From positions 1,034,580 to 1,058,095 of the forward strand of contig NW_003122409.1 of the NCBI RefSeq assembly GCF_000003605.2: DNA of 23,516 nucleotides, given 5' to 3'. The notes under the pieces were generated by a model that searched no databases, was not told where the DNA came from, and saw only the letters and a list, made by a program, of their open reading frames with translations. Made by a program: the position numbers and the translations under genes. This document shows, in pieces, positions 2,653 through 23,288 of the stretch (position 1 is the first letter of the stretch; each line of letters opens with the position of its first letter). The DNA is from Saccoglossus kowalevskii. Lineage: Eukaryota > Hemichordata > Enteropneusta > Harrimaniidae.

Positions 2653-2823
2653 CTACACTGATGTGAAACTATCACTTCCTTTGAATTCACTAAGTTCTTG
2701 TACTGGGTTGATGTCTTTCTGTTTGGATGCTTTTCTCACTTTGGCTCTGAGTTCATCTGGATGTTCACGCTTCACCAGAGGTTTCTTGTCTGGTGCCTTC
2801 ATTTTCCACATGACAACAGGGGA
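2653..2823 (-). CDS. CTNNA: alpha-catenin terminal coding exon with stop
   Basis: A 171-nt terminal segment of 56 codons plus TAG (plus-strand cta at 2653-2655). It begins SPVVMWKMKAPDKKPLVKRE and includes RAKVRKASKQKDINPVQEL and SEFKGSDSFTSV. Vertebrate proteins end WKMKAPEKKPLVKRE...KKHVNPVQALSEFKAMDSI. The C-terminus is extended by three or four residues compared with vertebrates and ends TSV, which has the form of a class I PDZ-binding ligand (S/T-x-V); that reading is inference. The acceptor is tttgttgcag before TCCCCTGTT. It is too short and cross-framed to be seen from open frames alone. Confidence 0.95.
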   Translation of the reverse strand, partial: SPVVMWKMKAPDKKPLVKREHPDELRAKVRKASKQKDINPVQELSEFKGSDSFTSV

Positions 2824-5800: not shown

Positions 5801-8800
5801 CAAGGATGTTTCTTGATAACATTTTTTTATTTTTTGTTTACGTATTGTTTTTCTGAATTAGATGTTTTCATATATAGTTAATCACATGATGTAAGGCTTA
5901 GTGAAAACGATTGTGAACTATGCTCCACAGTTTACGTGGGATCCTAATGCACGTGGACTTCTTGATTACTGGTAAAATGGCTGCAACATAAAAGTTGGAA
6001 TTCCATTCTAGTCTGAAAACTGACCAATAAAATTACATGGCACAGATATAATCCGATCTAATTATAGAATATATTGTGATGAGATTTATGTATAACATCA
6101 ATTAATATGAAGTAACAAAGGTTTTGAAGAACAGGTTATAATTTACTAGATGAACTTACATGCCCCTGTGTAGATCAACCTTCTCACCCCCAGATGTACT
6201 CATATTTTGGTATGATCTGATTGTTTTTCACCAGTGACAACAGAGATACTTAATATATGCAAGGAGCTTAATTTAAATGTTAGTATAAACCATGCATGCA
6301 CTCCATGTGTGTGAATAATTACTATTTTATAAAAGGGTGCAGACTGTCCAGCGTAGTAGGTTTATACCAAAATGCTAACCTTTCCACATCCAATTGCTGG
6401 AGGGTGGATTATAGGTCCACCCTGAGAAAACAACAGGATCATACCAATATTCAATACAGTACAGGGGGAGAAGGTTTAAAAAAGATGTGATGAAAAGTTA
6501 AACATGTTTATCACAAGCAGACAATGAATGCATGCAGTTTAACAGACAAAACTGAACAAGATATAAAAATAAAATCATGCAATGATGAAACAATAATGCA
6601 TAATACAGATGTATATAGCGTGCAGATAGTTGGCTGGTAATACTGGTAGTGTTGTATAGTTTTATGTCCTTGTCACACTGTCAGATTTGCTCAAGTTTTC
6701 AATAAATATTTCTCTCCCCATTTCACTCAAAATCAGTGTGAAATGGGTTGAATTCAGTGTTTGAGTTTTGAAAATAAAAAAAATCAATACAGTGCAAAAT
6801 TATATTCAATTCCAAATTAAATTATTATTTTCTGATACATTAGGATTTTATTAAAAAAAATAAAAAAAATAAATAAAAAATTATTTAATATAATCAGAAT
6901 GCTGTATCCAAATATTAGCAATATATAGAGTTATGCTAAAGCAAATTAAGGTTAATGCAAGAAATATTTTTTTTTGTAGCTCGTGAATGTTATCGTCATC
7001 ACATGCAAGGGCATATAAACTATACAAGCAGAATCACATGCTTTTCATGCATATCTTGGCAGTTGAAAAGATTTCCCAGCATGTTAGTATTCATAATACC
7101 GAGGGTATTTATATTTATTGCAATACATTTTATCTATAAACAATCACAAATTTAGTATTGTCTATTTCAATATATTGTAAGACTACCGTAAATATTAACA
7201 GATTGTACAAAAATATGATATTTTGAATTTCTCGCATGTTTCACCGAAATCTCTGCCGAATATTTTCATACTTCCATACATTGTGTATAGTAACCCTAAA
7301 GTAGTTTACCACTGATTGTAGAATATTTTATCTTTCGCCTATCTCAATTCATTGAGACATTTACTTTAACAGATATTCAACAGTTTCGAATTCTCTGGTC
7401 TATGTTTTCATATGTGAAAGGTAGTTGATATCACCATGGTCATTACGAATTTATAGTTTTACGAAGATCAGTTTTGCATCAAATCTGTTAAAATTACTCA
7501 TCTAGGTTAATTTTAGTACCACAAAGACTGCACAAAGGCGTACGGTTGTCGTATCCTGGATGATATGAAAATAGAAATCGCATATTATGTTCGAGAAATA
7601 TTACAAACTTTTTCTGTTATTCAAGTTATTCAGCTCTGTAATGCTTGAGAATTTTTTTTAAATGCAGCATGCACCAAACCATCTTACAAATGACTAGACA
7701 TAAAACAAACCGCTCTTTCATGGAATAAACCGTGGCATAAGTTCAGTAGTGTAATAAACCTGAAACTTGTTCAACACATGGCCTGCTGAAAGTTTCCATG
7801 GATACGAGTAGCCAAAAAATGGAAAAACAGACATCAGCGGTTGATGCGTTAAAACCTTATACAATAAGGTGGAGAACACATTGACAACTGCCAAGACACA
7901 AACATAACATGCAAATGATATCACTGTGTCCCTACATAGACAACACATGCACATGCAGTCCATATACAGACAACTTACTGCAGACACCACAAGTTCACCA
8001 CTAACACTCTGCACACCAGCTTTCACTTTACTACATATGTTCAACTGGTGACAATACAGAGCAATTCTCTGCAGGTAAGCTACAAGGTCATCTTTGGACT
8101 GTGAATGTGGACACAATTCGGCAATTTGCCGGGCCAGTTTGTCCAATTTCGAGCCCTGATCTGCAATTCTTCTTGCTGCGTGGATTACATCCATTGTCGT
8201 TTTCAAAGGACCACGACCTCTGCAACAAATTTAAATTTCATTTCAATCTATTAAAAATTAAACAAATAACACTAAAGACACAAGCATATTACAAGAATTG
8301 CAAATTATGCAGTATGATGGTTGTATTGGCCAACAACTTTGTGTCATTCTCATCATAACTTTATTATCATACATCTTTTCATATTTGTAAAACAGCACAA
8401 AATGACAGCGATTATTTTTTTTCACAAATATGCTTGCGTAATTGCGAAACACCCAAGGTAAACAAAGGATAGTATTAACTTGAATATCCTAATTGTGAGG
8501 CTCACACACATCATAATACAAAGAATATTTTATTTTGTTTTTACTCAATAAAAACACAATCACCATGGTTACCTTGTGAAGTCAGTCATTTCCATCATAA
8601 TCATACACATATTTTTGGCCAATATGATAATATCATTGCCGGAGTCATCCCACTGGTATATCACTTGTTGTTCAAGTCTTTCTTTTTCAAGTTCAAATTC
8701 TTCCACTTGCTGTGCAATCTGTTCTCTCTCTTCTTCAGTAAATTGTGCTAAAGATTTCCTACGTCAATAAATCACATCACACAGTGTCTTGAATGAGTTT

Positions 8801-11800
8801 ATAAATCACAGGGGGCATTACATGTGGCTGAAATGTATTACTTATTTACCGGTACACACAAATTGACCATTGACAGGCAGGGTACAATGGCTGCCCTAGC
8901 TTTAACCAACAAACGTCAAATTTATCACTTCACAAAACAAAACAAATTAACCGACAGGATAGTTTTCCATATTTTTCTCAAAAATTTTGATCCAGACCTG
9001 TAGGCAATGACAAATTATACCAATTTGGTCAAAAATTTACAGAAAAATTAACATATTATAGCAAAATATATAAAAATGTTGATTGGGAAACACAATTGAT
9101 GAAAAGTTTTTTATGATGGTTTTATCAATTATCTACTACTGGTTGCCATCTATAAAACAGCAATGAATAATTTCTACTTACATTGTACTCTCATGAGAAT
9201 ATTTTTAAATCATAAAATTTTGTATAAACAAAAATATATATTAACACATTGTCAACTTCACATGTGACCCATATCGAACACAACACATCATGGTGACCAC
9301 CACCCTTTAACAGTTTCTAATTCTGTTTATGGGTCTTGAGGAAAGAGCTGTTAAACCTGTGGCAATTTAACTTATTCTGCGGTAACATTGTGCATTCATA
9401 TTTTAGAATATTGTGGACTAAAATACATGTGGTTTTGGAAAAGAATAACACCAACTGTGTTGTTCATTGTACTAAACCTGAATGCTCCCCAATCGAGATT
9501 AATAACATAAATTGTAGTAGAGGATAAAAGGATTTAGAAACTGTGATATGTTTGTGGGAATGGTTACCAAAATAGTCTTTGAAGACAGCTCTATTACATT
9601 GGAAATATCAAGCAGATGAGCAAAATATCAAATATTGTGTAGGAAAACATTTCATAAAAGTAAGAGGAAAAAACTTAGGCAGAGGGTTCTCCGAACCCTG
9701 CGTATTCACATAGTTCATACTCATCATAGACTTCGGTCAGTCAAAATTACTATTTTGAACTGTAGGCATTAATCAGCGATTCTGTCGGTGAGGAGAGATA
9801 GAATCTAGGTCAGGGGAAGCCCCATGACCCCAAGATTCTCTTTCCCTTACGTCACAAACCACGTGACCGAGGCCATATGGCAGCGCCATAAACGGCTGTA
9901 CAATCACTCTGGTTCCTTTCTCTCCGTTTCAAGGACTTAGACCAACGCTATGGAAAGAGTGGGGTGGTTGGGGGGGACCCAGAGTCTATGGTGGGTATGA
10001 ACTATGTGAATAGGTGGGTTCGGAGAACCAACTGCCTAAGTTCACTACGTTCAATTACCCACCATAGACTCCGGTCAGTCAAAATGACTATTTTGAACTG
10101 TAGGCATAGTCAGGTGCCGATAGGTGGCGGGTTTTTCGAGCAAACAGAAAAATGATGAAAGTCTTTTCCCAGTCTGGGATGAAATACAATTATCAGTCAA
10201 CACCCTAAATAAGGCCTGCGCTGTCCCCGGAGCAAGAACCCAAAATGCTGCTACGGTGACAGGGTCGGTGTGCCAGAGAAAGCTAGACCCCAACCCAATT
10301 CTTAGGGGTAGTAAGCTTTCGAAGTAAAGACCGAAACAGTTCTGTATGAGGGCATAGGCGGGACCTGGGAGCTTCCAGGTGAGTGCCGAGACTGACTTAT
10401 TGTCTATGCGCAGGGACCATTGTGGTTGTTCTGGCTGGGTCAGCAAACCAAGGCTGACCTGCTACGACGGGACCCAACTTAAAGAGACCTTCCTCAATGG
10501 ATTCGGTGTCTGTTAGGTGGTAGTTGATAAAGACGTTCTGCATTCTCCAGAAGCCTACCCTCCGTGTGTGCTCGAGGGGGACACCTGACGCTAGCACTAG
10601 TGAGTTGGCAATCGCACAGACCTCATGCGCTCGTTCTTGGTGTCTCTGCAAGCTCTGTGTCGAGGAAGTTAAAGTATTATAGACCTCTAATACAGTCGCA
10701 GTAAACCACCTGGTTATGGAAGTTGGGGAGGCTGGCCCATCCTGCCTGCCTGGGCCGAAACACAAAGACATGTGCCTGGCACCCCGTCCCGAATCCTTAG
10801 TACGGTTGGTAGCAACTCCGTGCTCAAACCAGGCAGAGAAGTAATTCCTCCTGACCCTCCGGGCAGACAAAAATTTGACAGCCGGGGGATGACGATAGGG
10901 TGAGGATCGTGTCCTGGGATTTGGTTCTAGGCGAGAAACCCGATTCGTGTCTTTCGTACAACTTGATTGTCCATAACGACGGCCGAGAATGACAATGCCC
11001 CCAGCTTTGGTCGACGCCTACCTGAGGCGAGGGCCAGTAGGAAGACTATTTTCTGTGTCAAAAAATTTGAGTGGTGCTGATCAGAGAGGCTCAAAGGGGG
11101 GTCTGCTTAGAGCGGACAACACAGCCAACAAGTCCGAGTTGGGCGGTTCCCTTGTATGGGGTCTTGGCGTCTGGAGATAGTCTCCTAATAGTAGGACAAT
11201 CGGCTAGTCTTGTTCCTGTACGCTTTCAATGGTGGGGGACAAGGCTGACCTGTAGCCAACGATCGCTGCATAGGACAAACCCACTTCGTCAAACAGGTGG
11301 ACGAAGGAGCCTGCTACCTGGCCAATAGAGGGATGGTATGGATCAATCTCCCTTCTGCTACACCAATCAGTGTATGCTCGCAGCCTAGGAATGTAGGCTG
11401 CATTGGTGGAATCCCTGTTTGCCCTGGCCAGGACATTGGCAGCCTGCTCAGATAAAGCTTTCGTATGTACGGGTCTAATGAGAGCCTCTATGCGTGTAAG
11501 TGATACCCGCTGGGCTCGTTGGTAGTGCGCCGTCTGGTTAGGATGGCAGGTCCGGTAAGTCTGGAAGCACTACTGGTGTTTCGACTAGCATTTCCGACAG
11601 AAGTGGAAACTAGGCCTTGTTTGGCCAATTGAGTGCGACCAATAATAATATCATTATGCAGGTGTGCACCTGCCGAAGTTTTCTCCGGTGTCCGGTGAAC
11701 TTGTGGGAAGGGAGGAAAGGCATACATAACTGTGGGTCCACGGGGTTAGCAAAGCGACCCTGGCCCAGGGTCCTGGAGTCGGCAGGAGTGTTACGTACGT

Positions 11801-14800
11801 CGGGAGCTTGGCCTTCCGGGGTGCAGCAAACCGGTCTAACCTTGGACCGTCCTACAGCCGAAACAGCCTGGAGGCTTGTATTAGCCACCCCATGTTATGG
11901 AGACGGAGCCGCCCTGAAGGGGCGTCTGCCAGACTGTTTCTTACCCCTGGAAGGTGGTGTGCGGTTAGCTCCACATTGTATTCCTGGCACCAAAGGAGGA
12001 TTCGCTCCGCTAGGACTGACAACAATGAGAAACGCGTCCCCCCTTCCTTCTCTAAGGAGACCACCATTGCGTTGCCTGTGCGGAGCAGGACTCTGTGGTC
12101 TCAAACTACGGGTAGAAAGCGTGGTAGTGCTAAGTTCTGTAAAGGGGGTAATTATTCACTGTGTTTTAATTTAGCTTATTTCGCTGACTGGAAAAATGCG
12201 CTAAATTAAAACACAGTGAATATGTAAAATTTAGCATAGAACACATTATCTAAATGACGAAGCCGTGAATTTAAAACCCACTGAATATGCCTGAAATGGT
12301 AAATCAATGAAATTTAAACCCAGTGAAAATTAGTCATTTTACAGTATACTACTTTCAGTTCGAGCCGGTTGATATGGTAGTCCCAAACAATCGCGGGGCC
12401 ATATCTTTGGATTTGTTCGTCCAATAGATGTGCTCCCCAACCTTGGGAGGAGGCATCAGTTACCAGAGTCATACCTGTGGCGAGCGGGTCCAAGGGGGCC
12501 CCCTGTCTGAGGTTGGCCAGTGACGGCCACCAGGGCAGGGCTTCCTTCACTTGGTCCCAGATCAAAACCCGCCTATCTAGTTCCCATAGGAGAGCTCAGC
12601 ATTATAACAAGCGTTATACCGGGCGGCTGCGTAGTGCGGCCTGGAGAACGACCCTTTGAACCGAGGTCATCATTCCGATGATCCGCATTAGTTATCGGAG
12701 GGACACTGAGGGAAGGCTGACTAGGCATTCGGGTAGGCTGCTTAGCGCTAAGCAATACCCTTGAAATAGCTAAACCAAGCTTACCTCTGTGTCAAAACTC
12801 CATGCCCAGGGACACCAACTGCGTGTTGGGTCGAGGTGGGACTTGTCGATTTACTAAAGAGCCCAACTGGTGAAGTAAATCCTGTGTTAGCCTGATGTGT
12901 TTGGCTATCAACCCCTTGTCCGGGTTGTGTAGTAACCAGTAGTCTGGGTACAGATTGAGGTGTACCGACATTTGGTAAAGCAGCAGCACTACCTGTTTCA
13001 TCACTCTGGTGAACACGTAGGGCGCTGTGTCTAACCCGAATGGGGGGGCACCCAAAATTCGAATACTTGGCCCAGCTGGACGATTCGAAGGAGATAGCAA
13101 CTTGCTGGGTGCATCAGTATGTGCAGGTAGGCCCCGCTTAAGTCTAGTGGGGCTAGCCAGTCAAAACTGTGGATGGAGAGAAGAACCCTGAATGTTGTCT
13201 CCATGTGGAACCGATCAAGGAGCACGTACTGATTCTNNNNNNNNNNNNNNNNNNNNNNNNNNNNNNNNNNNNNNNNNNNNNNNNNNNNNNNNNNNNNNNN
13301 NNNNNNNNNNNNNNNNNNNNNNNNNNNNNNNNNNNNNNNNNNNNNNNNNNNNNNNNNNNNNNNNNNNNNNNNNNNNNNNNNNNNNNNNNNCATTGAAGCA
13401 ATCTAAGGTGGTCGCCTTAGGATCAAGGGTGGGGGTATTTACATCATATCACTGGGATCGATGATACTCCGCATCAACCCAAAAGCGTGGCTTTTGAGTC
13501 ATTTTGAGTCAAACCGAGTCATTACGAATGGAAGACTCTGAGGGACCGCCTGGAGTACCAGCTGTATCTGAGCGAACTGCGTCTCCCTTCACTTTAAATA
13601 TGTGAGAGGGAGTGTGTAAAAATTCTATGTGCGTCTCATGATAGAATCGGTTCCCCCTGAGGACGCCCATGGGTCGGTAAGAAGAGAGTCAAAACCCACA
13701 GAGGAGACCGGACATAAGGATAAATTCGTTACCGTTTCCGTTACCGCGCGACAAACCCTGGCTGGCTGAAAGTAGGGGGGGTCAGCGTGTGCCCTGCCCT
13801 GCCTCGAGATCGGAGGCTTGGCTGCCAGCACCTCATTGGCATTCAGTGCCCAAGGCTCCAGAGGAGGCCTGGTGCAATTAGCCTGAGCCTCACCCTCACC
13901 CAAAGTTAGTGGGAAAGCCGCGGCTGGAAATGGGGGTTCCCGGAAGAAGCACCGGTAGCCGAGCGTGAGGACTTTCCACTCATGCCAAACACGCAACTCA
14001 CTTTAACCGATTTGTTTACTGGACGCGCGACCTTGCTGTGAAGAAACGAGCGACGCGCGGTCAGTCTCAGCGATTTTGATGGCTCTGAAAGAAAATCTCA
14101 GGCCTCAGAACTCCAGTGAAAAACACACGCCTTCACGGCAAAACCCTGAACCACGTACGCAGCTACGACAAAAGTATCTCAGATGCGGGTTCTATGCTGG
14201 TAAATTCTGAATATAACCACTGCACAGCCGACTCGAAACACGAGGAGACCAAAAAAAAAACGGCAGCGAGCCCTGGTGCTGTCATTACATCTATACATTT
14301 CTAAATACATTGTAAATAAAAGACGACATGCATGAGGGAAACAAAATACAATTGTAAAAAGGTGCCGCCGCGAAACCAACCTGTGGTTACGTAGTGGCGC
14401 CGGGTTTTAATTTCTTTGTTGTGGAAAAAACATTACACACAAAGGGGAAAATGACACGAGGGTAAAAAAGACAAGAAAAACTTATCCTACCAGCTAGAAT
14501 GTCATATGCCACAGCTGTGGCAATAACCCACGCTAGAAACCCGGACAGGAAAAAGCAAACGAGCCAGGCAGAGCCGCTCAGAATCATTCCTGACGCGGCG
14601 GAGATGAAAGAAAGAGTGATTTGTACAGCCGTTTATGGCGCTGCCATATGGCCTTGGTCACATGGTTCGTGACGTAAGGGAAAGAGAATCTTGGGGTCAT
14701 GGGGCTTCCCCTGACCTAGATTCTATCTCTCCGTAACTGGCAGAAACCCTGATTAATGCCTACAGTTCAAAATAGTCATTTTGACTGACCAGAGTCTATG

Positions 14801-17800
14801 GTGGGTAATTGAACATAGTGAATTCAGTTCTCCCCATTCAAATTGTTATTTCAGTTTTCAGAATAATATCACTGGTTACCAGAATGGAAAATTTATTTCA
14901 AATGTAGCACACATTCTCATTACTATTTTGACATTTATACATCCTCAACTGGTGATGGTTATCACCAATGATGAATGACAATAATTACCTCTCTGGTCTG
15001 GACATTTGGATCTTGGCGCATCATTCTAGCTTCCCTTGAACGTTGCTCATCGGCGGCAGCTTGCTCCCAGTCTGGTTCGGTAACAATATTCCAACCACCT
15101 GGTGCCAGTAAGGGATCATATTTCTGCCAACCGACAACAGGTCTACCATCAGCACCAAGCAGTTTTCCATCTGGGCTTATCACAATGGGTCTTCCATCCA
15201 TTCCTATAATTGGCTGACCATCAGCGCCGAGGAGTCTACCTTCACGATCTAAATACATCGGCTTACCATCAAGACCAAGTATCGGCCGTCCATCTGAGCC
15301 AATTAACATACCATTTGCATCAATTGATATAGGTCTCCCGTCTGCATCTAACAGCCTGCCATTCGGTGCAATGGTTAGTGGTTTACCATCAGAAGTCATA
15401 ATGGGTCTACCAAAGGCACCGACAAGTGCACCCCCAGGACCAATGGGTAATGCTCTTCCATCTGCACCTACCAATCTTCCATCAGGAGTGATGGAAATCA
15501 AAGGTCTTCCGTCACTACCATATAACTTACCATCTTCACCAATTGTAACAGGCTTGTTATCTGGACCAGTAAGTGCATATCCATCTGACGTCATCAATCT
15601 GCCATCCGGATCTACCATAAGAGGATTCCCATCTGGCCCAATAATAGGTCTACCATCAGCGCCAACAAGGTATCCATTATTATCAACATTTATAGGGTTT
15701 CCATTAGAATCAATTAATGTTCCATCCGGAGCTATTAAAATAGGTCTTCCATCTGGTCCCAGTATTGGTCTACCATCTGGCCCATAAAGATATCGACCTA
15801 GTTCTTCCTCTCTTGATCCCTGTCCTCCGGGTCCACTTACTCCATACCTGGCTACAGCGGCTCTCCTGAGATCTGAACCATACTCATCAAGCAGGTGGTC
15901 CTGCACAGAATCACTCTCATCAAATTTACTTTGTCCATACGAACTGGGGAATGCACCAGCTGCAACAGAAGATGAGGTGGTTTTTTTCACAATTTCATCT
16001 AGTTCCACTTTGGGACCCTCACCAGTGAAATCTTTTGGGAATATGACAGACACCATAGGCAGTGTACTGTATTTATTAACATCAATAGTCCTGGTGGTGC
16101 TATAAGTCGAACTACCAGCAGGAGGTTTGGGTTTACTACTCAGCAAAGTCGCACTCCTTCGTGAATAGTCCTTTGTCGCTAATTGCTCTCCATAGACAGT
16201 GCTGGGGAGAGGTGCTGGTGGCAGAGGAGGTGGGGAAGATGGGGGAGGAGGAGGTGGTGGTGAAGTTGGGGGCAGATCTTTATCACTATCTGTATCAACA
16301 TGAGATATAGTTGATGTCGGTGATGTCGGTTTGCTCCATCTAGCAGGTGGCGGTGGTGGAGGGCTTTTGCTTTTTGCTGGAGACGGAGGTAGCGGCGATG
16401 TGCTTTGTTTTGCTTGTTCAGTTTTATAAAAGTTTTCTCTCATTTGTTTCAAGTGCTGCTGAAGCTGATTTCTTTCAGCTTTAGTCACTTTTCGTTCCTT
16501 TGTATGTACTGGTGGCATGGCAACCACAATTCGTTCAGTTTTATGCTGCAAAGGATGCATGAGAGGAGCCGGAGGCCGTGGAGGGGGTACATCTTCATCT
16601 TCGTCTTCAATCAGTTTGAGTTCTGCTTGTTTGCCATAATAATGCTCAAGTTTGGATATAAAAGTGGGTGCTGCAGAGAGGAAGATGGGAAAGAAAAGAG
16701 AGGAGAAAAAAAGGATGTGATGGAAAGAACAAAAACAATACAAGGAAGACAAAAAAAAATAAAACAGAAACACACCAAAACAAAGCATGTTAATTTTACA
16801 AGGCAGCCCAATTGGCAAAGTGACAATTGGCTTAAAGTTGGATCCGAAACTAATAAGTAAGACTGCAGTGAATTAACTACTATTTTTATTCATTCATTCA
16901 TAAATATCTCTAATTATTTGATATCTATCTTAACAATCTATCGTTTAATTATTTTGTTCTCTATCATTGTTTCTCAAACATAAATTTATTACAGTACAAA
17001 TAAAAACATGCTAGATTCATGCATTTTGTGTATATATGTTATTAGTACATTTGTCATTCTACACTAAAACTATTGTTTTACATATAATACCAATATTTCC
17101 TATCAAATACATAAACAGATTTTTTTTTTTTTTTAAATAAATTTTTGTACCAGGCGACAGTTCTGGACATTTTTAGTGTCACTGTTTTCTCTCCTGACTT
17201 TTTCTTAAGCAAATGATGGATGACCAAGAACCAAATATTTTCATCCATGGAATGTTATTCTAACACAGGATTAATTTACCATGCTATTAAAACTAGTTTT
17301 TCAGAGAATTTTACCCCCAAATGCAAATAGTTGGCGCCCTCACAGCACCACAGAGATACAAGTGTTGGCACCCTCAGGGTGTGAGAAAGATGTCTGAAAT
17401 GAAAAATTTAAACTCCTTTTCAGCTAGATTTTTTTTTTTAATTAATATTTAATTAATATTTTTTCGTTCAATTTTCCTGTAGGATTTTTCATCAAAAATT
17501 CTCTGTGTTCAGATTTTGTAGGTGCCATCACAGATTGGTGAACAAGATGTGTGGATTAACATGGCTGGTACACTATAAAGGGTTGACAAATTGAAACTCC
17601 TTCACCTAGTTTTGTGCTCAATCTTTTGTCTTACTCCATCAAATGTAAGAATATAAGTTTATAATGTTTTGATGTTTTGTTGTTAATTTACAGTAGGTGA
17701 ACCTAAAAAATGTCATGGACAGAATAAAGTAGCCATTCCCTTGATGTCTGATTATCTAAAATGAGAGAAGATTAGCGTGGCGTAAAACAAATAAGACTCT

Positions 17801-20800
17801 ATCCCACACATGATGGTTGCCTAAGGTATATTGTTATCAGATTATGACGTACCAAAGTACGTGATGAGTTTGATTCTGAATTTAATAATAATAAATATCA
17901 TAATTTGGATTCAGAGATAAAGAATTTTGTTGTTATCTAAAGTTAAAATAAGTAATTGTGCAGTCATAAATGCAACTATATATTCAGGTGAAATGGTAAG
18001 TACACAGACAAAGAAAAATATATAAGATTGATGCAGGGAAAGGTAGAAAGAAAGGTGCAAGCAGTGACACAAGATGCAACGTGCATAGCATACAGTAATC
18101 ATGACAAACAAACAGTTCAATATTTATTAATTCGGTTAGTTTTCATATCATCTGCATCTACTTTTGCAGCTGGTTGCAAAATTATGTGATTCCATATTCA
18201 AGATAAATTTGAGATAAGTTGGTGGTATGTTGATTTCTCATTAGTGAGTTAGTTACTGGTAAAAGGTGGGTATAATTAGCACATCGCCGCCATCCAGGAG
18301 TGTACGAGACAATTCAGACCTGTGAATGATGTTGTAATATATGCTATACTTACCGTTGGTGTCATATAACTCGTCTATATCACTTGGTAAATCATCATCA
18401 CGATCATCCTGGAAATTAATGCAATAACAATATTGGGTAAGCACTAGGTAACATGATTATCATATTCACTTTGTGAACCAAATTTGCCAAAATTGTACAA
18501 ACAAACAAAAATTCAACAAGAATCGCAAATTTTTCATTTAAAAATATTGCAAATTGCAAATTGAACTGACTTGTGTGTATTGACTTGTATATGAAACATG
18601 GTGTAAAACTCACAATTGTTTTGGAATAAATTCAGACACAATTGATTAGAGTTTGATTTCCTGTGCTGATTATACATTATAATGAAAAATGCACGAAAAT
18701 TAGTACGGTGGTTGGTAGTATTTCAGGTAATGAATACATATATCAGATAAAAAAAGGTCCTGCTTCTCATCATTGTAACTGCATGCATCAGTTTTAAATT
18801 TTGAAAGCCACTGAAGTGCAGCATATACGTTAAAATAAATTCAAAATGGCATATTTTTTCAATTTCCCCTTGGAAGAGAAGCAAAACTTTGAGGGTAGGA
18901 GGCTTAGTATTTTATTAGCAAATTCTAAGAACTGCTTGTAAACAATACAACATTAGAAGGAAAATATAGAAGAGATATATACCCTATTACAAGTACAGCT
19001 CTTCTGATATCTCTGACACCACTATAAACCATTTGGGCAGCATCCATGAACTCTTCTTCATCAAGTGGTTTCCGTGGACGTATCGTCAAGGCTTCGACTG
19101 CATCTTCCACTTCCTGTGCAAATTTTGGCATCACTAAAAAAACAATCCATGACATCTACTGAGACATGGCTCTTTTTGGAACTGATTGATATGCTCACAA
19201 TCAGCCAATGATATTTGATGATTTGTATAGATTTTTATCAAAATATTAAATAAATACTAAGAATTTTCAAACTAGGAATGTATATATTTGTATTGACTGC
19301 CTCATTTAAAAACTAAAATTCAAGAAAAAAAGATTGAATTTGCATTAAGTTTCAGAGCAGAGCGCCACCGGTGGCAATAGTTATACATTATTTTGTTTTT
19401 ATAGTCTATTACAATTATGACTGTGTGAGCTGCAATAAAAACAAAATCAACTTAGTTTCTCACTGTGGGGGCGTCCTTTAAGTTTTACCACTACAACTAC
19501 AACAAGGCAAGAGATTTTTATTTAATATGATACAAGATTAGTACTTGCTTATATATGTGGACCTTAATTATATATTGTATATGAAGAGTTTAAATGTAGT
19601 GAGATACAATGTTCCACAATAGATAATCAACTTACTGACCTATTTAAAAATGTCATCATAAACAAGATAACATTTTGGAAAAAAACAAAACACAACATGA
19701 ATCTGGCATATCAGTTGCCCTGCAAAACTCTGAATCTGTCATGTTTACTGGACTTATCTAAATCCTATCACCATCGGGTAAATTGTATAATGTGAACAAT
19801 AGTCCACACAATTCAGCTGTGGGATACACTTATCTACTTTCAATTTCTTCAAAAATAGCTAGGTAAATAAATAGCTAAATTAGATAAGGTTGTTTTCTGA
19901 AAGTATCAATGTTTTTCTTGAGATGAATGAAATCAGGTCATATCAAATTATTTTGATTTTTGTGGAACATCTTCAGGCCAGTAAAATGTTAAACGGTTTG
20001 AAAATCAATGATGTTTGTGAGAAAACCTGCATGTAATCATCCTTGCTAATTTTTTCTTTCACCCAAAACAGTACTGCGGTTCATCCTTTAAGCTGGTGTG
20101 TGAAAGTTAACTACTAATAAAGTAACTGATATTTGATAAATAAATTATGGGAAAGTGGAGTATATGTAACCAACAAAGGTGAAATTCAACCACATGGTAT
20201 AAATTGGTCCTATGCCATTTTATATTTAAACGCCAATTCAAATATCATTACAAAAAAAATATAAATACCTCTTTCTCTAAGACTGTCTACAGCATTGATC
20301 ACTCTGTCTGTGTATGGATTTGGTACATAGTTTTGCATTTCAGCCTCAACCACATGACATACGCGAGCAGAACGTCCACGTATAGCACCAGCACAGCGAT
20401 CCAATTTATCACCGTCTGAATCTCTCAAAGCCTCATTACATTTACCAATATCTTCAAGAATATGTTTCTCTGTTCAGAAAAAAATTAAAATAAATTGTAG
20501 TAATAACACTTAGATAAAGTATGCCAAGCATCTATTGATGTAATTGTGACAATGGCATATGAATGTTACTCATAGACCTTTCAGCTTTACGTGAACACCA
20601 AAGGCCAACTTTTGTCACTTTTCACAAAATAAAACTGCAAACAATTTTTCCATATTTTTTTTAAAACAAAACTTGTGGATTTTAGGAAATTATGCTAATT
20701 TTGTCCAAAATAAATAAATTGTAGAAAAACACATAAAAAATGGCAAAACGTTGCACCAAATTTGTTGGGGGAAAAAATATGGCATACAAAGTGTTATTTG

Positions 20801-23288
20801 AAAAGCCAGGAATTTACTTGAATATAAATAATTGATTAATTTGAAAACTATTACAGCATATTACCCCCAATTTTATTTCAACACTGGTTTAGCATGGCAG
20901 TTCACTCTTCTCTAGCAATTCATATCTGCACAGATTTGTCCATACCTGATACAGCAAGGAAATCATCCAGCGTTGTGATTTCATCTACAGCCTCTGTGAG
21001 TAACCGCACTTGTTTCTCCCATTGATCTTTGAATGCATCCATGTTCTCTAAGGCAGCTTTACTACGTGGCCGAGCAGCCAATATACGGGCAGCGTTGATG
21101 ACCTGCAATTACAGACAGACAAAGTCATGGCAATGTTTAAAAAACACTGCATATATTAAGACACAGCAAGGAAACATTTATATGAAAATTTCATAAAACT
21201 ATTTCAGGATCATAATTCCTAACATTTAATTTACACATATACCAGTATATTATCAAGGGATTTATATAATGCATTCATTTCATTTGATGTGATTTGCACA
21301 ATGATCACAAAATTGCAAGACAAATTACTAGAAATTTAGGCAATCTAGATGACTGATAGCACCGTTTTTATCAATCCACACTGTGCAGAGAAAAAAACAG
21401 AGTGATTAAGAGGACAAAATGACTGTGACTCATTGCCTCGGTCACGTGGTTTGTGACGTAAGGGAAAATCTTGAGGTCGTGGGGCTTCCCCTGACCCAGA
21501 TTTCTCTCTCCGTCATTGGCTGAATCGCAGATTAATGCCTACAGTTCAAAATAGTCGTTTTGACTGACCAGAGTCTATGGTGGGTAATTGAATGTAGTGA
21601 ATGTAAATGTAAATGAGAGAACAGGTGTGATTGGTCAAAACAGGTGTGATTGGCAACTTGCATTCAACTCACATAGAATGCTGACATAATGGCATTATAG
21701 CAATTTATTGTGCTATCGTTGAATCTTTGCCTTCCCATGTGATTCTACATCACACTCATCCACGGTTGATGATTGTGGTTAAACCTACATGTAGGTAGGC
21801 ATTGAACTCTGGACTACTGATCACATGACCAATGCAACAACCATCACAAGTAACAAGTTGCAAAGTATCTTATAATCTGTGGTAAATACCTGGGGGCAGA
21901 GGTTTTCTAATTGTTGTGCAGCAAGTCGTACACACTTCACTCCTTCTTCATTGGCCGACATAGAACAAGCAAGATTGGCAACCTGTGACATTGAAATAAA
22001 AAATAAGAAGTTACTGCTGAAGGTTTCATACCACAATTGAAATTCGTATCAAGGTGTTTGGTTATGCAAGTACCCATGAATCTAATTCACTATTTTGGAA
22101 TGTTTTAACTGTTTAGAGTGAGGAGTCAGCTCGGTAAACTTTTCTAATACTGGCAACAATACTGCATTTCAAGTGATTACATTATTGTTTATAGGGAGTT
22201 TAATTGTAGCATGTGATGTAAAGAACTATCTTGAATACTTCATCTCAAATGTATGGCAGTGGCTTTGAAGCATGTATTGAACTGTTGGATATATTTCCTA
22301 TCATACACATGGTGAAATATATTCATAAAATACTGTAGCTAATATCTCAGCAACATCAAAGCCACTAAAATTAAACACACAGGTACAGTAGAAGAAATAC
22401 ATCAAGCTGAAAAAACATAGAATTTACTTTAATACTAACCACTGGAGAACATAAGCCTTCAGAAATGTTTGTAGAAAACTAAAATAACATTTTCACTTTA
22501 ACAGCAATGATTTGTTTCTCTATCTCCACTATCTCTTTGAACATTCAATAAAAATCAAAATACACGTACAACGATTTTTGGGGAAATGTAAGAATTTAAG
22601 TCTCACCTCTACAAGTTTGTTGGCATGTTCCTGGAAGACGCCAGCATATTCTTCTACTTCTTTCTCATTACCACTCTTAGCAGCTTCAATTAGCACAAGA
22701 AGAGGAAGATTGGTTTCAAGAAAAGAATCTGATATATGGTCTACCACAGCCTTTCGTAACTACAGAGTCAAATAGAGCATACAAAATGTATCAGAACAGA
22801 AATTTATACAGATTAATTATAAATTTATAATCACAAAATGTACAGACTCTCTCAATGACTTAACAAATCAGGTTAACTTCATTAGGGCAAACAAAAAATC
22901 CTTGTTTGAACCTGCTTGCACCTGCCATATAATATTTTAGAATTTTGCAAGATTCTCAAGATGAGAGTTGGCTATGCATTTTTCCAACTGCATTCATAGC
23001 CACAATATTGAGGATGAGTGTATGCAAACAAACAAAATGAACATTAGTTCTTCATCTTTTTTAATTTCACACAATAAATTTGTTTCCATTTTCCTCATGA
23101 GAATTTCTCTTACTCCGCACATCATAATGTTTCTCTGAGTATCAAAAAAACTACATTTAAACATAAAATGTTCTAATGTCTCCTCTTCCTCTTTGTTATA
23201 GACTTACCTGGCGACGTAAATCTCTGGTTTTGTTAAACATTCTCTCTATTGCCCTATCAAGTGGATCACTCCTTTCTTTACGACCAGC
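2653..23288 (-). CDS. CTNNA: alpha-catenin gene, 3' two-thirds (12 recognised exons, 5' end outside window)
   Basis: Alpha-catenin links beta-catenin/cadherin complexes to F-actin at adherens junctions and belongs to the vinculin/alpha-catenin helical-bundle family. Exons lie at 23208-23288, 22607-22759, 21890-21982, 20946-21102, 20269-20469, 18991-19133, 18354-18408, 14989-16670, 8573-8758, 7979-8219, 4495-4614 and 2653-2823. Every border is GT/AG and all junctions keep frame except 14989 to 8758. Diagnostic stretches include AGRKERSD, FLETNLPLLVLIEAAK, ENMDAFKDQWEKQV, LDRCAGAIRGRSARV, WDDSGNDIIILAKNMCMI, LAYLQRIALYCHQLNICSKV-like (V for L at the start) and WKMKAP. The coding sequence visible here is 3283 nt, of which 1682 nt is one unusual linker exon. 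The N-terminal beta-catenin-binding exons are upstream of the window. Family assignment is very secure; which vertebrate paralogue it is closest to cannot be told by eye. Confidence 0.96.
2824..4494 (-). other. alpha-catenin intron (before terminal exon)
   Basis: Intron with donor gtaagt at its 4494 end and acceptor tttgttgcag at its 2824 end. It contains one complete MITE copy (3761-3967). The surrounding 3600-4200 stretch has phrases such as CTGGACCAATTTTATTTAAA and CAAAATGGCTGATTGGTGAC that look like an older interspersed repeat interrupted by the MITE. No coding signal was seen. Confidence 0.85.
3761..3967. mobile_element. MITE-like element, copy 1
   Basis: A 207-bp element with imperfect terminal inverted repeats beginning CTGTAAA and ending TTTACAG, flanked on both sides by TA, which could be the target duplication of a Tc1/mariner-type transposase (inference). 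It is about 90 percent identical by eye to 12137-12344 throughout. Inside, ttcactgggttttaatttt-type and aaaacccagtgaa blocks repeat about four times in both orientations, so the single strand could fold extensively. It has no coding capacity and so is non-autonomous. Confidence 0.8.
4495..4614 (-). CDS. CTNNA: alpha-catenin exon: actin-binding tail, penultimate
   Basis: A 120-nt exon of 40 codons, phase 0/0, not long enough to stand out as an open frame alone. It begins LDSATSLIQAAKNLMAAVVQ, continues TVKASYVASTKYARQ and ends KGQAK. Vertebrate alpha-catenins read DSATSLIQAAKNLMNAVVLTVKASYVASTKYQK. The acceptor is tttgacag before CTCGACAGT; the donor is GCAAAA|gtaagt. The short variable end (ARQKGQAK) matches the region where family members differ (insect TRQGTVSS). 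Confidence 0.96.
4615..7978 (-). other. alpha-catenin intron, 3.4 kb, AT-rich; no gene
   Basis: A long intron with donor gtaagt at 7978 and acceptor gacag at 4615. It holds AT-only low-complexity stretches (about 4797-4905 and 6840-6890) and a diverged interspersed repeat at about 5553-5700. No open frame on either strand resembles a protein I know. The downstream gaaattt-rich sequence near 7180-7600 shows no structure I can name. Confidence 0.8.
5553..5700. repeat. old interspersed repeat, copy 1
   Basis: Shares an ordered set of short blocks with 8967-9085 and 20649-20790: CCATATTTT near the start, GTCAATGACAAATTAT, then A-rich sequence, then AAATGTTGCATCAATTTT and a final G-run with GACAAATTATGGCA. 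Identity is low and the copies differ in length, so the family is old. Boundaries are approximate. Confidence 0.45.
7979..8219 (-). CDS. CTNNA: alpha-catenin exon: actin-binding tail core
   Basis: A 241-nt exon: one base completing Arg, then 80 codons. It begins GRGPLKTTMDVIHAARRIAD and includes KLDKLARQIAELCPHSQSK, YLQRIALYCHQLNICSKVKA and SGELVVSA. It is almost colinear with vertebrate GKGPLKNTSDVISAAKKIAE...YLQRIALYCHQLNICSKVKAE...GGELVVSG. These residues form the central helices of the C-terminal actin-binding bundle. The acceptor is gttgcag before AGGTCGTGG; the donor is TCTGCA|gtaagt, phase 0. Open reading continues into the intron, but the perfect gtaagt donor and homology end the exon at 7979. 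Confidence 0.96.
8220..8572 (-). other. alpha-catenin intron, 353 bp
   Basis: Short intron between the two main actin-binding-tail exons, donor gtaacc at 8572 and acceptor gttgcag at 8220. AT-rich, with no further feature. Confidence 0.9.
8573..8758 (-). CDS. CTNNA: alpha-catenin exon: start of actin-binding tail
   Basis: A 186-nt exon. One base completes an Arg codon, then 61 codons and two bases. It begins KSLAQFTEEEREQIAQQVEE and contains WDDSGNDIIILAKNMCMIMM and EMTDFT. Vertebrate text is ARAIMAQLPQEQKAKIAEQV...WDDSGNDIIVLAKQMCMIMMEMTDFTR. The acceptor is gacgtag before GAAATC; an in-frame TGA lies just upstream of that AG, so the exon cannot extend. The donor is ACAAG|gtaacc. It requires two bases (AG for Arg) from the preceding exon, which the giant exon does not supply. 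Confidence 0.95.
8759..9673 (-). other. intron sequence between DIRS element and tail exon
   Basis: Non-repetitive intron left over on the 3' side of the DIRS insertion, with one old interspersed repeat at about 8967-9085. At least one small exon should lie in the intron that contains this stretch. Two weak candidates here have the required length (2 mod 3): 8 nt at 9182-9189 with a perfect gtaagt donor but no pyrimidine tract, and 20 nt at 9357-9376 with cgcag acceptor but a poor gtttaa donor. Neither is convincing enough to annotate as coding. Confidence 0.5.
8967..9085. repeat. old interspersed repeat, copy 2
   Basis: Resembles 5553-5700: CCATATTTTTCTCAAAA, then GGCAATGACAAATTAT, TTTGGTCAAAAATT and AAAAATGTTGATTGGG in the same order. 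Boundaries are approximate. Confidence 0.45.
9674..9912. repeat. DIRS terminal repeat (3' end of element)
   Basis: Starts CTTAGGCAGAGGGTTCTCCG. From about 9724 to 9910 it is the reverse complement of 14613-14805, about 90 percent identical, including ATAGAATCTAGGTCAGGGGA and GCCATATGGCAGCGCCATAA. The outermost about 50 bases (9674-9723) are not shared with the other terminus but are matched in reverse complement by 9982-10040 in the internal complementary region. Confidence 0.9.
9982..10107. repeat. DIRS internal complementary region
   Basis: Two adjoining halves meet at 10040/10041. The first (9982-10040) is the reverse complement of the outer end of the terminal repeat at 9674-9730. The second (10041-10107) is the reverse complement of the outer end of the other terminal repeat, 14756-14822. 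In DIRS elements this region is proposed to template the joining of both ends into a circular DNA intermediate that the tyrosine recombinase inserts. Its position next to the 3' terminal repeat fits the canonical order. Confidence 0.9.
10397..11500 (-). pseudogene. DIRS tyrosine recombinase, broken
   Basis: Fragments in more than one frame, in order. A core-binding domain at about 11500-11210 (ALSEQAANVLARANRDSTN, YTDWCSRREIDPYHPSIGQV, ending at a stop after VQEQD). A first catalytic block at about 11170-11000 (PPFEPL, then FLLALASGRRRPKLGALSF). A second at about 10640-10500 (RAHEVCAIANSLVLASGVPL, VGFWRMQNVFINYHLTD). Related DIRS recombinases have AHEVR and a Tyr near the end of that last motif; here the Arg is Cys and the Tyr position appears to be His. 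The enzyme would have inserted the circular element DNA. Stops and frame changes show it is inactive. Confidence 0.82.
11501..12136 (-). pseudogene. DIRS RNase H, C-terminal part, and connector
   Basis: Minus-strand remnant continuing the RNase H after the MITE: LALPRFLP, then VLLRTGNAMVVSLEKEGGTR, CQEYNVELTAHHLPGVRN and SLADAPSG. The usual DIRS motif is RTDN; here the Asp is Gly. It continues through a connector (YAFPPFPQ; ILLLVALNWPNKA) that in intact elements precedes the recombinase. There is a stop in DHRVLL's upstream codon and frames shift near 11720. Confidence 0.8.
12137..12344. mobile_element. MITE-like element, copy 2, nested in DIRS RNase H
   Basis: A 208-bp relative of 3761-3967 with the same termini (CTGTAAA ... 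TTTACAG). The 3' side is followed by TA and the other side by TT, so one flanking base of a TA duplication may have mutated. It splits the RNase H motif directly after NRLELKVV and before LALPRFLP, so it inserted after the DIRS element was already in place. Confidence 0.85.
12345..12700 (-). pseudogene. DIRS RNase H, N-terminal part
   Basis: Remnant reading MRIIGMMTSVQRVVLQAALR, then three in-frame stops within about 12580-12615, then IWDQVKEALPWWPSLANL, MTLVTDASSQGWGAHLLDEQ and IVWDYHINRLELKVV. TDASSQGWG carries the first catalytic Asp of RNase H and NRLELK the Glu. The sequence is interrupted by the MITE at 12344. Confidence 0.85.
12792..13236 (-). pseudogene. DIRS reverse transcriptase, broken
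   Basis: Reads HMETTFRVLLSIHSFDWLAP, LDLSGAYLHILMHPAS and GQVFEFWV in one frame, then GAPPFGLDTAPYVFTRVMKQ, LNLYPDYWLLHNPDKG and PNTQLVSLGMEF in another. The frame change sits at a run of seven G near 13045. LDLSGAY corresponds to the family LDLxDAY catalytic motif. YPDYWLL stands where DIRS elements have YLDDWLL, so one catalytic Asp is Tyr. The N-terminal part is lost in the assembly gap at 13237-13390. Confidence 0.87.
13237..13390. other. assembly gap (154 N)
   Basis: Run of 154 undetermined bases inside the reverse transcriptase region of the DIRS element. Its true length is unknown. Open frames crossing it are artefacts. Confidence 0.99.
13391..14612 (-). other. DIRS 5' internal region, unassigned
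   Basis: Between the 5' terminal repeat and the reverse transcriptase, where DIRS elements usually carry a Gag-like frame. The longest minus-strand frame is 13996-13625 (123 codons, MRVWHEWKVLTLGYRCFFRE ... LLTDPWASSGGTDSIMRRT). I do not recognise it, and it may be a Gag remnant only by position. A second short hydrophobic frame at 14587-14387 has no similarity I know. Confidence 0.45.
14613..14822. repeat. DIRS terminal repeat (5' end of element)
   Basis: Reverse complement of 9724-9910 over most of its length, ending ...GGGTAATTGAACATAGTGAA. The last 67 bases are matched in reverse complement by the right half of the internal complementary region. A third relative lies at 21435-21601 and ends at the same point, supporting this element boundary. 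Confidence 0.9.
14989..16670 (-). CDS. CTNNA: giant linker exon: proline-rich FH1-like region plus DGRP repeat array
   Basis: A 1682-nt open exon (two bases plus 560 codons) between acceptor ctctctgcag|CACCC and donor GAGAG|gtaatt. It starts (A)PTFISKLEHYYGKQAELKL, then an acidic run (EDEDED) and polyproline tracts at about 16560-16600, 16340-16400 and 16200-16285. A charged helical piece (KAERNQLQQHLKQMRENF) lies at about 16440-16490, and a Ser/Thr-rich spacer follows the proline region. About 27 repeats of the type GxDGRPI/xPDGRLx occupy about 15128-15795. The tail reads GWQKYDPL...EARMMRQDPNVQTRE. NVQTRE may correspond to vertebrate SVQTED, tying the 3' end to the ancestral linker. The entry phase fits the preceding exon exactly; the exit phase (0) does not fit the next recognised exon. 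I do not recognise the repeat. It could be an alternatively used exon, or less likely part of a nested gene. Confidence 0.8.
15128..15795 (-). repeat. protein-level tandem repeat array (GxDGRPI units) inside the giant exon
   Basis: About 27 consecutive units of 7-10 residues, for example YGPDGRPI, LGPDGRPILI, APDGTLI, GADGRPII, GPDGNPLMV, DPDGRLM, GSDGRPIL, GLDGKPMYL, DREGRLL, GADGQPII, GMDGRPIVI, SPDGKLL. Many fall into a higher order of two or three units (about 17-25 residues), alternating xxDGRPIxI with xPDGRLL. Each unit has a D/N-G turn flanked by short beta-prone hydrophobic residues (I, L, V), which would suit a repetitive beta-turn or solenoid-like fold; this is inference. The DNA copies are diverged (different codons), so the array is old and selected at protein level rather than a recent expansion. 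Confidence 0.88.
16671..18353 (-). other. alpha-catenin intron, 1.7 kb; no gene
   Basis: Intron between the short acidic exon and the giant exon, donor gtaagt at 18353 and acceptor ctctctgcag at 16671. The acceptor side is strongly pyrimidine-rich on the minus strand (tttttctcctctcttttctttccc-like run at 16680-16720). The interior is AT-rich with TTAATATTTAATTAATATT near 17440 and two similar TTGGC(G/A)CCCTCA phrases at about 17331 and 17364. No coding signal. Confidence 0.85.
18354..18408 (-). CDS. CTNNA: alpha-catenin exon: short acidic linker
   Basis: A 55-nt exon of 18 codons plus one base, DDRDDDLPSDIDELYDTN followed by a split codon. The acceptor is atttccag before GATGATCG; the donor is AACG|gtaagt. 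It falls where vertebrate alpha-catenin has the acidic, phosphorylated linker (TPEELDDSDFETED) between M-III and the actin-binding tail. The Ser in PSDID has acidic residues at +1 and +3, a casein-kinase-2-type context (inference). Only the position and acidity are conserved, so the assignment rests on frame, splice sites and location. Its final G plus CA of the long exon gives Ala. Confidence 0.78.
18409..18990 (-). other. alpha-catenin intron, 582 bp
   Basis: AT-rich intron with no repeat or coding signal seen. I looked for an extra microexon carrying the missing family residues after RRAVL and found none convincing. Confidence 0.8.
18991..19133 (-). CDS. CTNNA: alpha-catenin exon: end of M-III
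   Basis: A 143-nt exon: two bases that complete Val, then 47 codons beginning MPKFAQEVEDAVEALTI and ending YSGVRDIRRAVL. Vertebrate alpha-catenin reads MPRFTEQVEAAVEALSS...YDGIRDIRKAVLMIR. The acceptor is gtttttttag before TGATGCC. I place the donor at CTT|gtaata because it gives phase 0, which the next exon requires. The alternative donor a few bases later (ATAGG|gtatat) would put the next exon into a frame with a TAG stop. The last two or three family residues (M-I/N-R) are therefore missing or replaced. Confidence 0.9.
19134..20268 (-). other. alpha-catenin intron, 1.1 kb
   Basis: AT-rich intron, donor gtattt at 20268 and acceptor tttttttag at 19134. Nothing recognised. Confidence 0.85.
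20269..20469 (-). CDS. CTNNA: alpha-catenin exon: M-III
   Basis: A 201-nt exon starting in phase 1 and ending in phase 1, encoding the rest of Glu, 66 full codons and the first base of the next codon. It begins KHILEDIGKCNEALRDSD and contains LDRCAGAIRGRSARVCHVV, the most recognisable M-III motif (vertebrate LDRTAGAIRGRAARVIHVV), followed by EMQNYVPNPYTDRVINAVD. The acceptor is ctgaacag before AGAAACATA and the donor is AGAG|gtattt. The junction to the next exon restores a Val codon before MPKFAQ. The first half of the exon is less conserved than the AGAIRGR core, as in other invertebrate alpha-catenins. Confidence 0.96.
20470..20945 (-). other. alpha-catenin intron with old repeat
   Basis: A 476-bp intron. 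About 20649-20790 resembles the diverged repeat seen at 5553-5700 and 8967-9085. Nothing else was recognised. Confidence 0.8.
20649..20790. repeat. old interspersed repeat, copy 3
   Basis: Begins CCATATTTTTTTTAAAACAA and ends GTTGCACCAAATTTGTTGGG then AAAATATGGCAT, in the same block order as the two other copies. The copy is much diverged. Confidence 0.45.
20946..21102 (-). CDS. CTNNA: alpha-catenin exon: M-II to M-III
   Basis: A 157-nt exon of 52 codons plus one base (ends phase 1). It begins VINAARILAARPRSKAALEN and includes MDAFKDQWEKQVRLLTEAVD and ITTLDDFLAVS. Vertebrate counterparts read VINAALALAAKPQSK, DLFKEQWEKQVRVLTDAVD and ITSIDDFLAVS. The acceptor is aattgcag before GTCATCAAC and the donor is TCAG|gtatgg. 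The last base G combines with AG of the next exon to make a Glu codon, giving LAVS-E-KHILED. Confidence 0.96.
21103..21889 (-). other. alpha-catenin intron holding a DIRS end fragment
   Basis: A 787-bp intron, donor gtattt at 21889 and acceptor aattgcag at 21103. It contains a solo DIRS terminal fragment (21435-21601) and, directly after it, two copies of ACAGGTGTGATTGG at about 21621 and 21640. Confidence 0.85.
21435..21601. mobile_element. solo DIRS terminal-repeat fragment
   Basis: A 167-bp relative of 14648-14822 in the same orientation: GGTCACGTGGTTTGTGACGT, GGGGCTTCCCCTGACC, TGCCTACAGTTCAAAATAGT and TCTATGGTGGGTAATTGAA, ending GTAGTGAA at the element boundary. A few internal bases are deleted. 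No DIRS internal sequence adjoins it, so it is a truncated copy or a non-autonomous derivative. Confidence 0.88.
21890..21982 (-). CDS. CTNNA: alpha-catenin exon: M domain
   Basis: A 93-nt exon of 31 codons, phase 0/0: it begins VANLACSMSANEEGVKCVR and ends LENLCPQ. It matches vertebrate VANLACSISNNEEGVKLVR...LEALCPQ. The acceptor is gtcacag before GTTGCCAAT and the donor is CAG|gtattt. The upstream intron starts directly after GAG of the preceding exon, so the junction reads KLVE-VANLA without a gap. The segment belongs to the M domain, which keeps the protein in a force-sensitive closed state in characterised homologues (known of the family, not shown here). Confidence 0.95.
21983..22606 (-). 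other. alpha-catenin intron, 624 bp
   Basis: AT-rich intron with no feature recognised. Confidence 0.85.
22607..22759 (-). CDS. CTNNA: alpha-catenin exon: M-II helices
   Basis: A 153-nt exon of 51 codons, phase 0/0, beginning LRKAVVDHISDSFLETN and ending FQEHANKLVE. It is nearly identical to the vertebrate stretch LRKAVMDHVSDSFLETN...EHANKLIE. The segment LPLLVLIEAAKSGNEKEVEE forms part of the M-II helical bundle in known alpha-catenin structures. The acceptor is ctgtag before TTACGAAAG and the donor is GAG|gtgaga. Joining it to the previous exon gives DLRRQ-LRKAV, exactly as in the family. Confidence 0.95.
22760..23207 (-). other. alpha-catenin intron, 448 bp
   Basis: AT-rich intron with donor gtaagt at 23207 and acceptor ctgtag at 22760. 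No further feature recognised. Confidence 0.85.
23208..23288 (-). CDS. CTNNA: alpha-catenin exon: start of M-II region
   Basis: An 81-nt exon encoding 27 residues, phase 0 at both ends. It starts AGRKERSDPLDRAIERM and ends TRDLRRQ. Vertebrate alpha-catenin has AGRKERSDALNSAIDKM then TRDLRRQ at the same place, around residue 370-400, near the boundary between the vinculin-binding M-I bundle and M-II. The acceptor is tttcag directly before GCTGGTCG on the minus strand, and the donor is CAG|gtaagt. It is the most 5' exon in the window. Preceding exons (N-terminal and M-I, including the vinculin-binding site) must lie above base 23516. Confidence 0.93.

Follow-up and report, generated by a model that had tools for sequence, protein, structure and literature searches.

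α-Catenin ties cell-cell junctions to actin, and force passes through its hinge on the way to actin; in vertebrate αE-catenin, the P-linker sites are S641, S652, S655 and T658. The available text of PMC11744050 describes the P-linker, which connects the M domain to the actin-binding domain (ABD), as unstructured and phosphorylated. The acorn-worm α-catenin gene analysed here has a linker at the same place between M and ABD and with an acidic start (DDRDDDLPSDIDE); however, the human linker counts ~35-40 residues, whereas the acorn-worm linker would count ~274 or more and is proline-rich. The vinculin hinge has the same position relative to a homologous head and tail and shares a VPPPRPP-like motif (human sequence) and poly-proline, but the acorn-worm version in the α-catenin gene is much longer and the sequence likeness shown is limited to short proline motifs. 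The vinculin of the same genome (contig C2221) has YPPPPPAPEP at the position of the proline hinge, with YPPPPPAPEPIPEEQFPGPP as the hinge start; its tail exons gave no match in the Pfam Vinculin genome scan or in the searches made with human sequences. In metavinculin, according to the available text of PMC6726196, an extra exon adds a 68-residue insert to the vinculin tail. There, as here, a vinculin-family protein is changed by one exon near the tail; by contrast, the metavinculin insert as described in that text is short and lies inside the tail, while the acorn-worm α-catenin exon lies in the hinge.

A text search of the open-licence PMC literature found no genome report on a hemichordate α-catenin, no report of an α-catenin isoform without the actin-binding part and no paper on the repeat motif described below. 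Similarly, no such α-catenin insert is mentioned in the available text of PMC13245172, in which the words insertion and linker are absent, or in that of PMC5968619, in which insertion occurs once, in the title of a reference. Because the text searches covered open-licence PMC papers only, this absence is weak evidence of novelty.

The window, i.e. the whole stretch of DNA that was analysed (23,516 nucleotides, C1491:1034580-1058095), was studied together with a genome of 572 Mb in 4830 contigs. Its minus strand carries M-domain and ABD exons of α-catenin, and the human CTNNA1 sequence matches ten stretches of it in tblastn with 58-85% identity. The best PDB matches of the second ABD exon are Catenin alpha-2 and alpha-1 (E 3e-33 to 6e-32), and this exon matches C. 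elegans HMP-1 with E 6.5e-27, VIN1 with 1.5e-06 and vinculins with 2.8e-05 or worse. By these comparisons, α-catenin rather than vinculin is the closer match of the M and ABD exons. When the whole genome was scanned with the Pfam Vinculin family, 19 matches were found on three contigs, C1491, C2221 and C1731. C2221 is the vinculin locus, as judged by comparison with human vinculin, and C1731 is only 29-46% identical to the CTNNA1 query; thus, on the evidence of these searches, the gene in the window is the only clear α-catenin locus found in the genome. N-terminal β-catenin-binding exons were not detected in the ~30 kb upstream of 1058095 on C1491, in a search without a positive control, and a genome-wide search for which residues 1-354 of the human protein, or 144 core residues of these, were the query, likewise without a positive control, gave no match to the N-terminal domain. 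These exons were perhaps missed through an assembly gap, an incomplete assembly or a very distant location.

At 1459-1523, the window contains a 22-bp unit in three tandem copies. The mitochondrial contig of the genome (C4830; 17,037 bp) has TGA at Trp sites, ATA at positions expected to be Ile and AAA at conserved Lys sites, features that we take to fit the mitochondrial code of an enteropneust hemichordate (acorn worm), and cox1 lies on the strand opposite to most of the other protein genes.

The exons and other features are listed in Table 1. Donors and acceptors were scored with general-purpose site frequencies that were not derived from this animal, and all scores are from the second version of these weights. 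The M-domain exon in the first row is one of several upstream exons within 23297-18983. The donor of the last M3 exon is ambiguous, i.e. 18983 (phase 2, score -0.8) or 18991 (phase 0, score -3.6), and only by way of the weak donor 18991 does this exon meet the 55-nt linker exon in phase. The junction between the M3 exon and 18408 therefore works only with a weak donor, another acceptor or an overlooked microexon, and the 55-nt exon itself is uncertain. At the other end, the first ABD exon opens with G|AAA TCT at 8758 (phase 2), and a TGA stands shortly before it in the same frame; a second AG gives an alternative start at 8747, 11 nt further in and in phase 1.

Table 1. Features of the α-catenin gene and of its large intron, with positions in the window
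Feature	Position	Strand	Evidence and remarks
M-domain exon	22607..22759	-	85% identity to human CTNNA1, tblastn; acceptor 2.3, donor 7.0
Last M3 exon	18983..19134	-	60% identity to human residues 583-632
Acidic linker exon DDRDDDLPSDIDELYDTN	18354..18408	-	55 nt; acceptor 2.8, donor AACG|GTAAGT 6.6; exits in phase 1
Proline-rich part of large exon	15848..16670	-	acceptor 6.6, donor 5.7; in-frame join to 8758
Repeat-bearing in-frame extension	14989..15847	-	286 full codons, 27 DGRP-type turns, charged segment ending VQTRE
TGA stop of the same frame, reached without use of a donor	14962..14964	-	end of ORF
AATAAA, possible intronic poly(A) signal	14892..14897	-	motif scan
DIRS-like retroelement	9668..14829	-	ends of matches elsewhere in the genome and inverted ends
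First ABD exon	8573..8758	-	Pfam Vinculin 8e-20; 60% identity to human 670-731
Second ABD exon	7979..8219	-	Pfam Vinculin 6.9e-36; best in PDB Catenin alpha-2, 3e-33
Third ABD exon	4495..4614	-	phase 0 in, phase 0 out; CTNNA1 tblastn, frame
Last coding exon	2653..2823	-	ends SDSFTSV*; ORF, CTNNA1 tblastn, frame

An earlier note on this DNA had drawn one uninterrupted exon of 1682 nt (16670-14989, minus strand), with a good acceptor and a fitting entry phase, between the M and ABD exons. All of these features were confirmed. One frame is open throughout, with 0 stops compared to 29 and 57 in the others, and by simple arithmetic with equal codons 560 full codons without a stop have a chance of ~2e-12. 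The sequence TTCCTCTCTGCAG before the exon has the top score among the seven acceptors scored (the other six, -0.5 to 5.6), the entry phase 1 fits the donor at 18354 with G + CA giving Ala, and the flanking exons match α-catenin in the CTNNA1 tblastn search. At the DNA level, the large exon was found once in the genome. When its protein was searched against the genome (E up to 1), nine places besides itself were found (E 7.8e-10 to 0.10), and the two best of these (L031 and L032) are tandem satellite-like frames. Overall, these results support a large coding exon in the α-catenin gene at the hinge from M to ABD.

The exit of this exon is a different matter. The earlier note had the exon continue into the tail as an insert of 560 residues; however, the donor at 14989 (GAG|GTAATT, score 3.6) exits in phase 0 whereas entry into the ABD at 8758 requires phase 2. 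Joined to 8758, the full exon reads VQTREEIFSTIY, with the junction VQTRE-EIFSTIY and a stop after seven codons, and a direct join of the full exon to the acceptor at 8747 was rejected, the ABD frame being lost. Because the exit phase misfits the tail exon, an M-to-ABD insert of 560 residues is not supported as drawn. Thus, a giant linker exon in α-catenin stands as far as its open frame, place and entry are concerned but fails at an in-frame exit from 14989 to the tail.

Several other donors reach the ABD in frame on paper. When the donor at 15848 (CCAG|GTATGG) is joined to 8758, the frame stays open to the native stop through a split Arg codon; this variant of the exon has 823 nt, enters in phase 1 and leaves in phase 2, and the join reads DLRRAAVA-R-KSLAQFTEEEREQ and continues through all four ABD exons to the native end. 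The same hexamer, GTATGG, recurs in the best donor near the M exon end at 20946. In the human protein the junction is GQSA-R-AIMAQ, the Arg of which aligns with the split Arg of AVA-R-KSLAQ. Overall, the likeness of the 15848 junction to the human linker is weak, with a rank of 51 among 528 pseudo-junctions, the best of which lie mostly inside the repeat. The joins of donors 16023, 15531, 15267 and 15099 to 8747 are all in frame to the native stop, as is that of 14966 (ATTG|GTGATA, phase 2) to 8758. Skipping of the exon (18354 to 8747) also keeps the frame, and thus the gene may have an exon-skipped form of α-catenin with a short linker. Donor look-alikes are frequent in the large exon, with three scoring at least 5.6 and six at least 3.6; therefore, the choice of 15848 is a judgement.

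If the Ala shared at its start and the Arg split at its end are included, the proline-rich half has 275 residues, of which 16% are Pro and 20% Ser or Thr, and its hinge motifs comprise VPPPRPPAP, two LPPxP and proline runs of six and seven. It has no Pfam family above the cut-off (best E 0.14) and no PDB sequence match up to E 10. Judged by position and composition, this is a proline-rich segment between a homologous head and tail, as in vinculin. The hinge of ~274 residues is probably disordered and, from its motifs, could in principle recruit SH3, Ena/VASP-type or profilin partners directly.

The repeat half is built from turns of an xDGRPIxG-type motif with the consensus [PAS]-D-G-[RK]-[PL]-[IL], spaced by 7, 8 or 9 residues and once by 10, and its self-match peaks lie at 40, 24 and 16 residues. 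Between repeat units, amino-acid identity is 0.45 while identity at codon positions 1/2/3 is 0.57/0.70/0.40, as expected if the units are kept for their protein sequence. Because this half looks plainly coding, it should be translated in some transcript. Moreover, the charged segment is coding-like and ends at the donor-like 14989, which speaks for the use of 14989 as a splice donor.

In Pfam, the best match of the repeat half is PF22692 (E 2.5e-05; 30 residues), which with 24.8 bits is below the cut-off of 27, and the sequence match to PDB 6tjf (Cake6, a designed β-propeller) is weak (1.3e-05 at best). A single-sequence model of the 286 residues has a mean pLDDT of 60, and matched three PDB rows with E 2.7e-04 to 8.1e-04; all are β-propellers (3hxj twice, 7ax2) with TM 0.16-0.18 at 16-20 Å. 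A model of 96 residues, for which five further stretches of this repeat, partly overlapping, served as the alignment, reached pLDDT 79 and pTM 0.66 and has short strands at regular intervals; it gave no PDB or viral-model match at E 0.001 or better, the best TM to the query among the PDB matches listed being 0.36. The repeat half resembles β-propellers, both natural (PQQ type) and designed (Cake, Scone-E), in its predicted short strands with DG turns and in its periods of 40, 24 and 16, but differs in the low TM of its model and the weak sequence match. We regard it as a predicted β-repeat without a reliable match to a family or fold and with a faint lean to the propeller. No confirmed relatives of the repeat were found in the viral and prokaryote collections, and no relatives of the first ABD exon in the viral contigs.

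Past the donor 15848, the frame runs on to the TGA after VIIVIHHW and is followed by AATAAA; both the stop and AATAAA are less than 100 nt from where the coding-like stretch ends. AATAAA occurs 23 times on the minus strand of the window, i.e. ~1 per kb or ~1 in 10 by chance per 100 nt, and is therefore weak support for poly(A) use. The layout suggests a composite terminal exon with intronic polyadenylation.

The intron downstream of the large exon is largely occupied by the DIRS-like retroelement, the bounds of which were placed where matches elsewhere in the genome end; its inverted terminal repeats are 89% alike, and it carries reverse-transcriptase- and recombinase-like frames, named by eye from ORFs. 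The part of the window from 9000 to 15000 has at least 221 genome matches including itself, and among the matches listed the pieces elsewhere are 70-94% identical; a gap of 154 N lies inside the element at 13237-13390. Because the element fills the rest, the native intron consists of 14988-14830 and 9667-8759 (~1.07 kb). In this native intron, no small exon leading from phase 0 to phase 2 stands out from shuffles. The best candidate, 8890-8850, has a score near that of the genuine first ABD exon, and its joint would likewise yield an Arg codon; when the right-hand piece (867 bases) was Markov-shuffled 200 times, a fraction of 0.445 of the shuffles matched or exceeded it, and it was not retained. 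The left-hand piece has one candidate, with a score of -14.2. The shuffle test covered phase 0-to-2 candidates, while phase 0-to-1 candidates were listed only. Over the whole interval, small-exon candidates fell mostly inside the retroelement or the large exon itself and were discarded.

We tentatively favour an explanation in which the ABD-containing form would have a vinculin-like, proline-rich hinge of 274 residues and the repeat half would serve as an alternative isoform end. The short M-to-ABD hinge would have become one large exon in the α-catenin gene of this acorn worm. In the ABD-containing form, we infer that the exon ends at the internal donor 15848 and that the repeat half is left out. 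Where 15848 is bypassed, 286 codons, mostly repeats, would be read to the stop at 14964-14962, with AATAAA (14897-14892) after it, giving an isoform that would keep the M domain and the hinge and in which the repeat domain would replace the ABD. Such an isoform would therefore compete with the actin-linked form at junctions. In favour of this explanation, 15848 outscores 14989, and the repeat half is coding-like and in the same frame as the proline-rich half; against it, one in three donor look-alikes would be in phase 2 by chance, the 15848 junction is only weakly like the human linker, AATAAA is common on this strand, the charged segment reaches the donor-like 14989, and the 8890-8850 candidate scores near the first ABD exon. 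A possible but doubtful alternative is that the whole exon, repeats included, lies between M and ABD, by way of 14966, of 15099 to 8747, of an additional small exon in the interval from 14989 to 8758, or of a one-base error in the assembly. The in-frame joins of 14966 and 15099 and the coding-like segment that reaches 14989 agree with this alternative; moreover, weak donors may occur in the gene, as at 18983 and 18991, and a small exon at 8890-8850 is possible. However, 14989 fits the frame of neither tail acceptor and phase 0-to-2 small exons do no better than shuffles. Donor 14966 scores -1.3, less than the top site near all ten α-catenin exon ends and near 15 of the 17 ends of vinculin alignments (each value being the maximum over the interval scored), and its junction ranks only 199 of 528 for likeness to the human linker.

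A splice from 14989 to the third ABD exon (4614) agrees in phase (0/0) and is in frame to the native stop; however, this agreement alone has a one-in-three chance, and the resulting repeat-bearing form would skip the first two ABD exons and lose most of the ABD, and we consider this broken form improbable. Neither half of the exon matches α-catenin in the PDB and Pfam searches, as would be the case if the exon, or its repeat half, were a separate transcript unit with its own promoter nested in the intron. Such a unit is distinctly improbable, given a good acceptor in phase with the upstream α-catenin donor on the same strand, a single unbroken frame across both halves, and the lack of a clear duplicate or parent gene at the ten genome places, of which the two best besides the exon itself were inspected. 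That the frame is open by chance and without function is hardly credible in view of 560 stop-free codons and the protein-level likeness between repeat units.

In its fullest form, the favoured explanation, with 15848 as an optional donor, becomes one of one gene and two proteins, i.e. an ABD form with a 274-residue, vinculin-like proline hinge and a second form, where the ABD gives way to a new DGRP-octad β-repeat domain via intronic polyadenylation, letting cells switch between actin anchoring and other engagement; as a whole, this proposal is rather unlikely. If true, a natural isoform that ends in repeats and lacks the ABD would be a built-in uncoupler. Moreover, if true, a natural α-catenin with vinculin-like proline motifs and a hinge many times longer would be a test of whether hinge length and partner recruitment can vary without loss of junctions.
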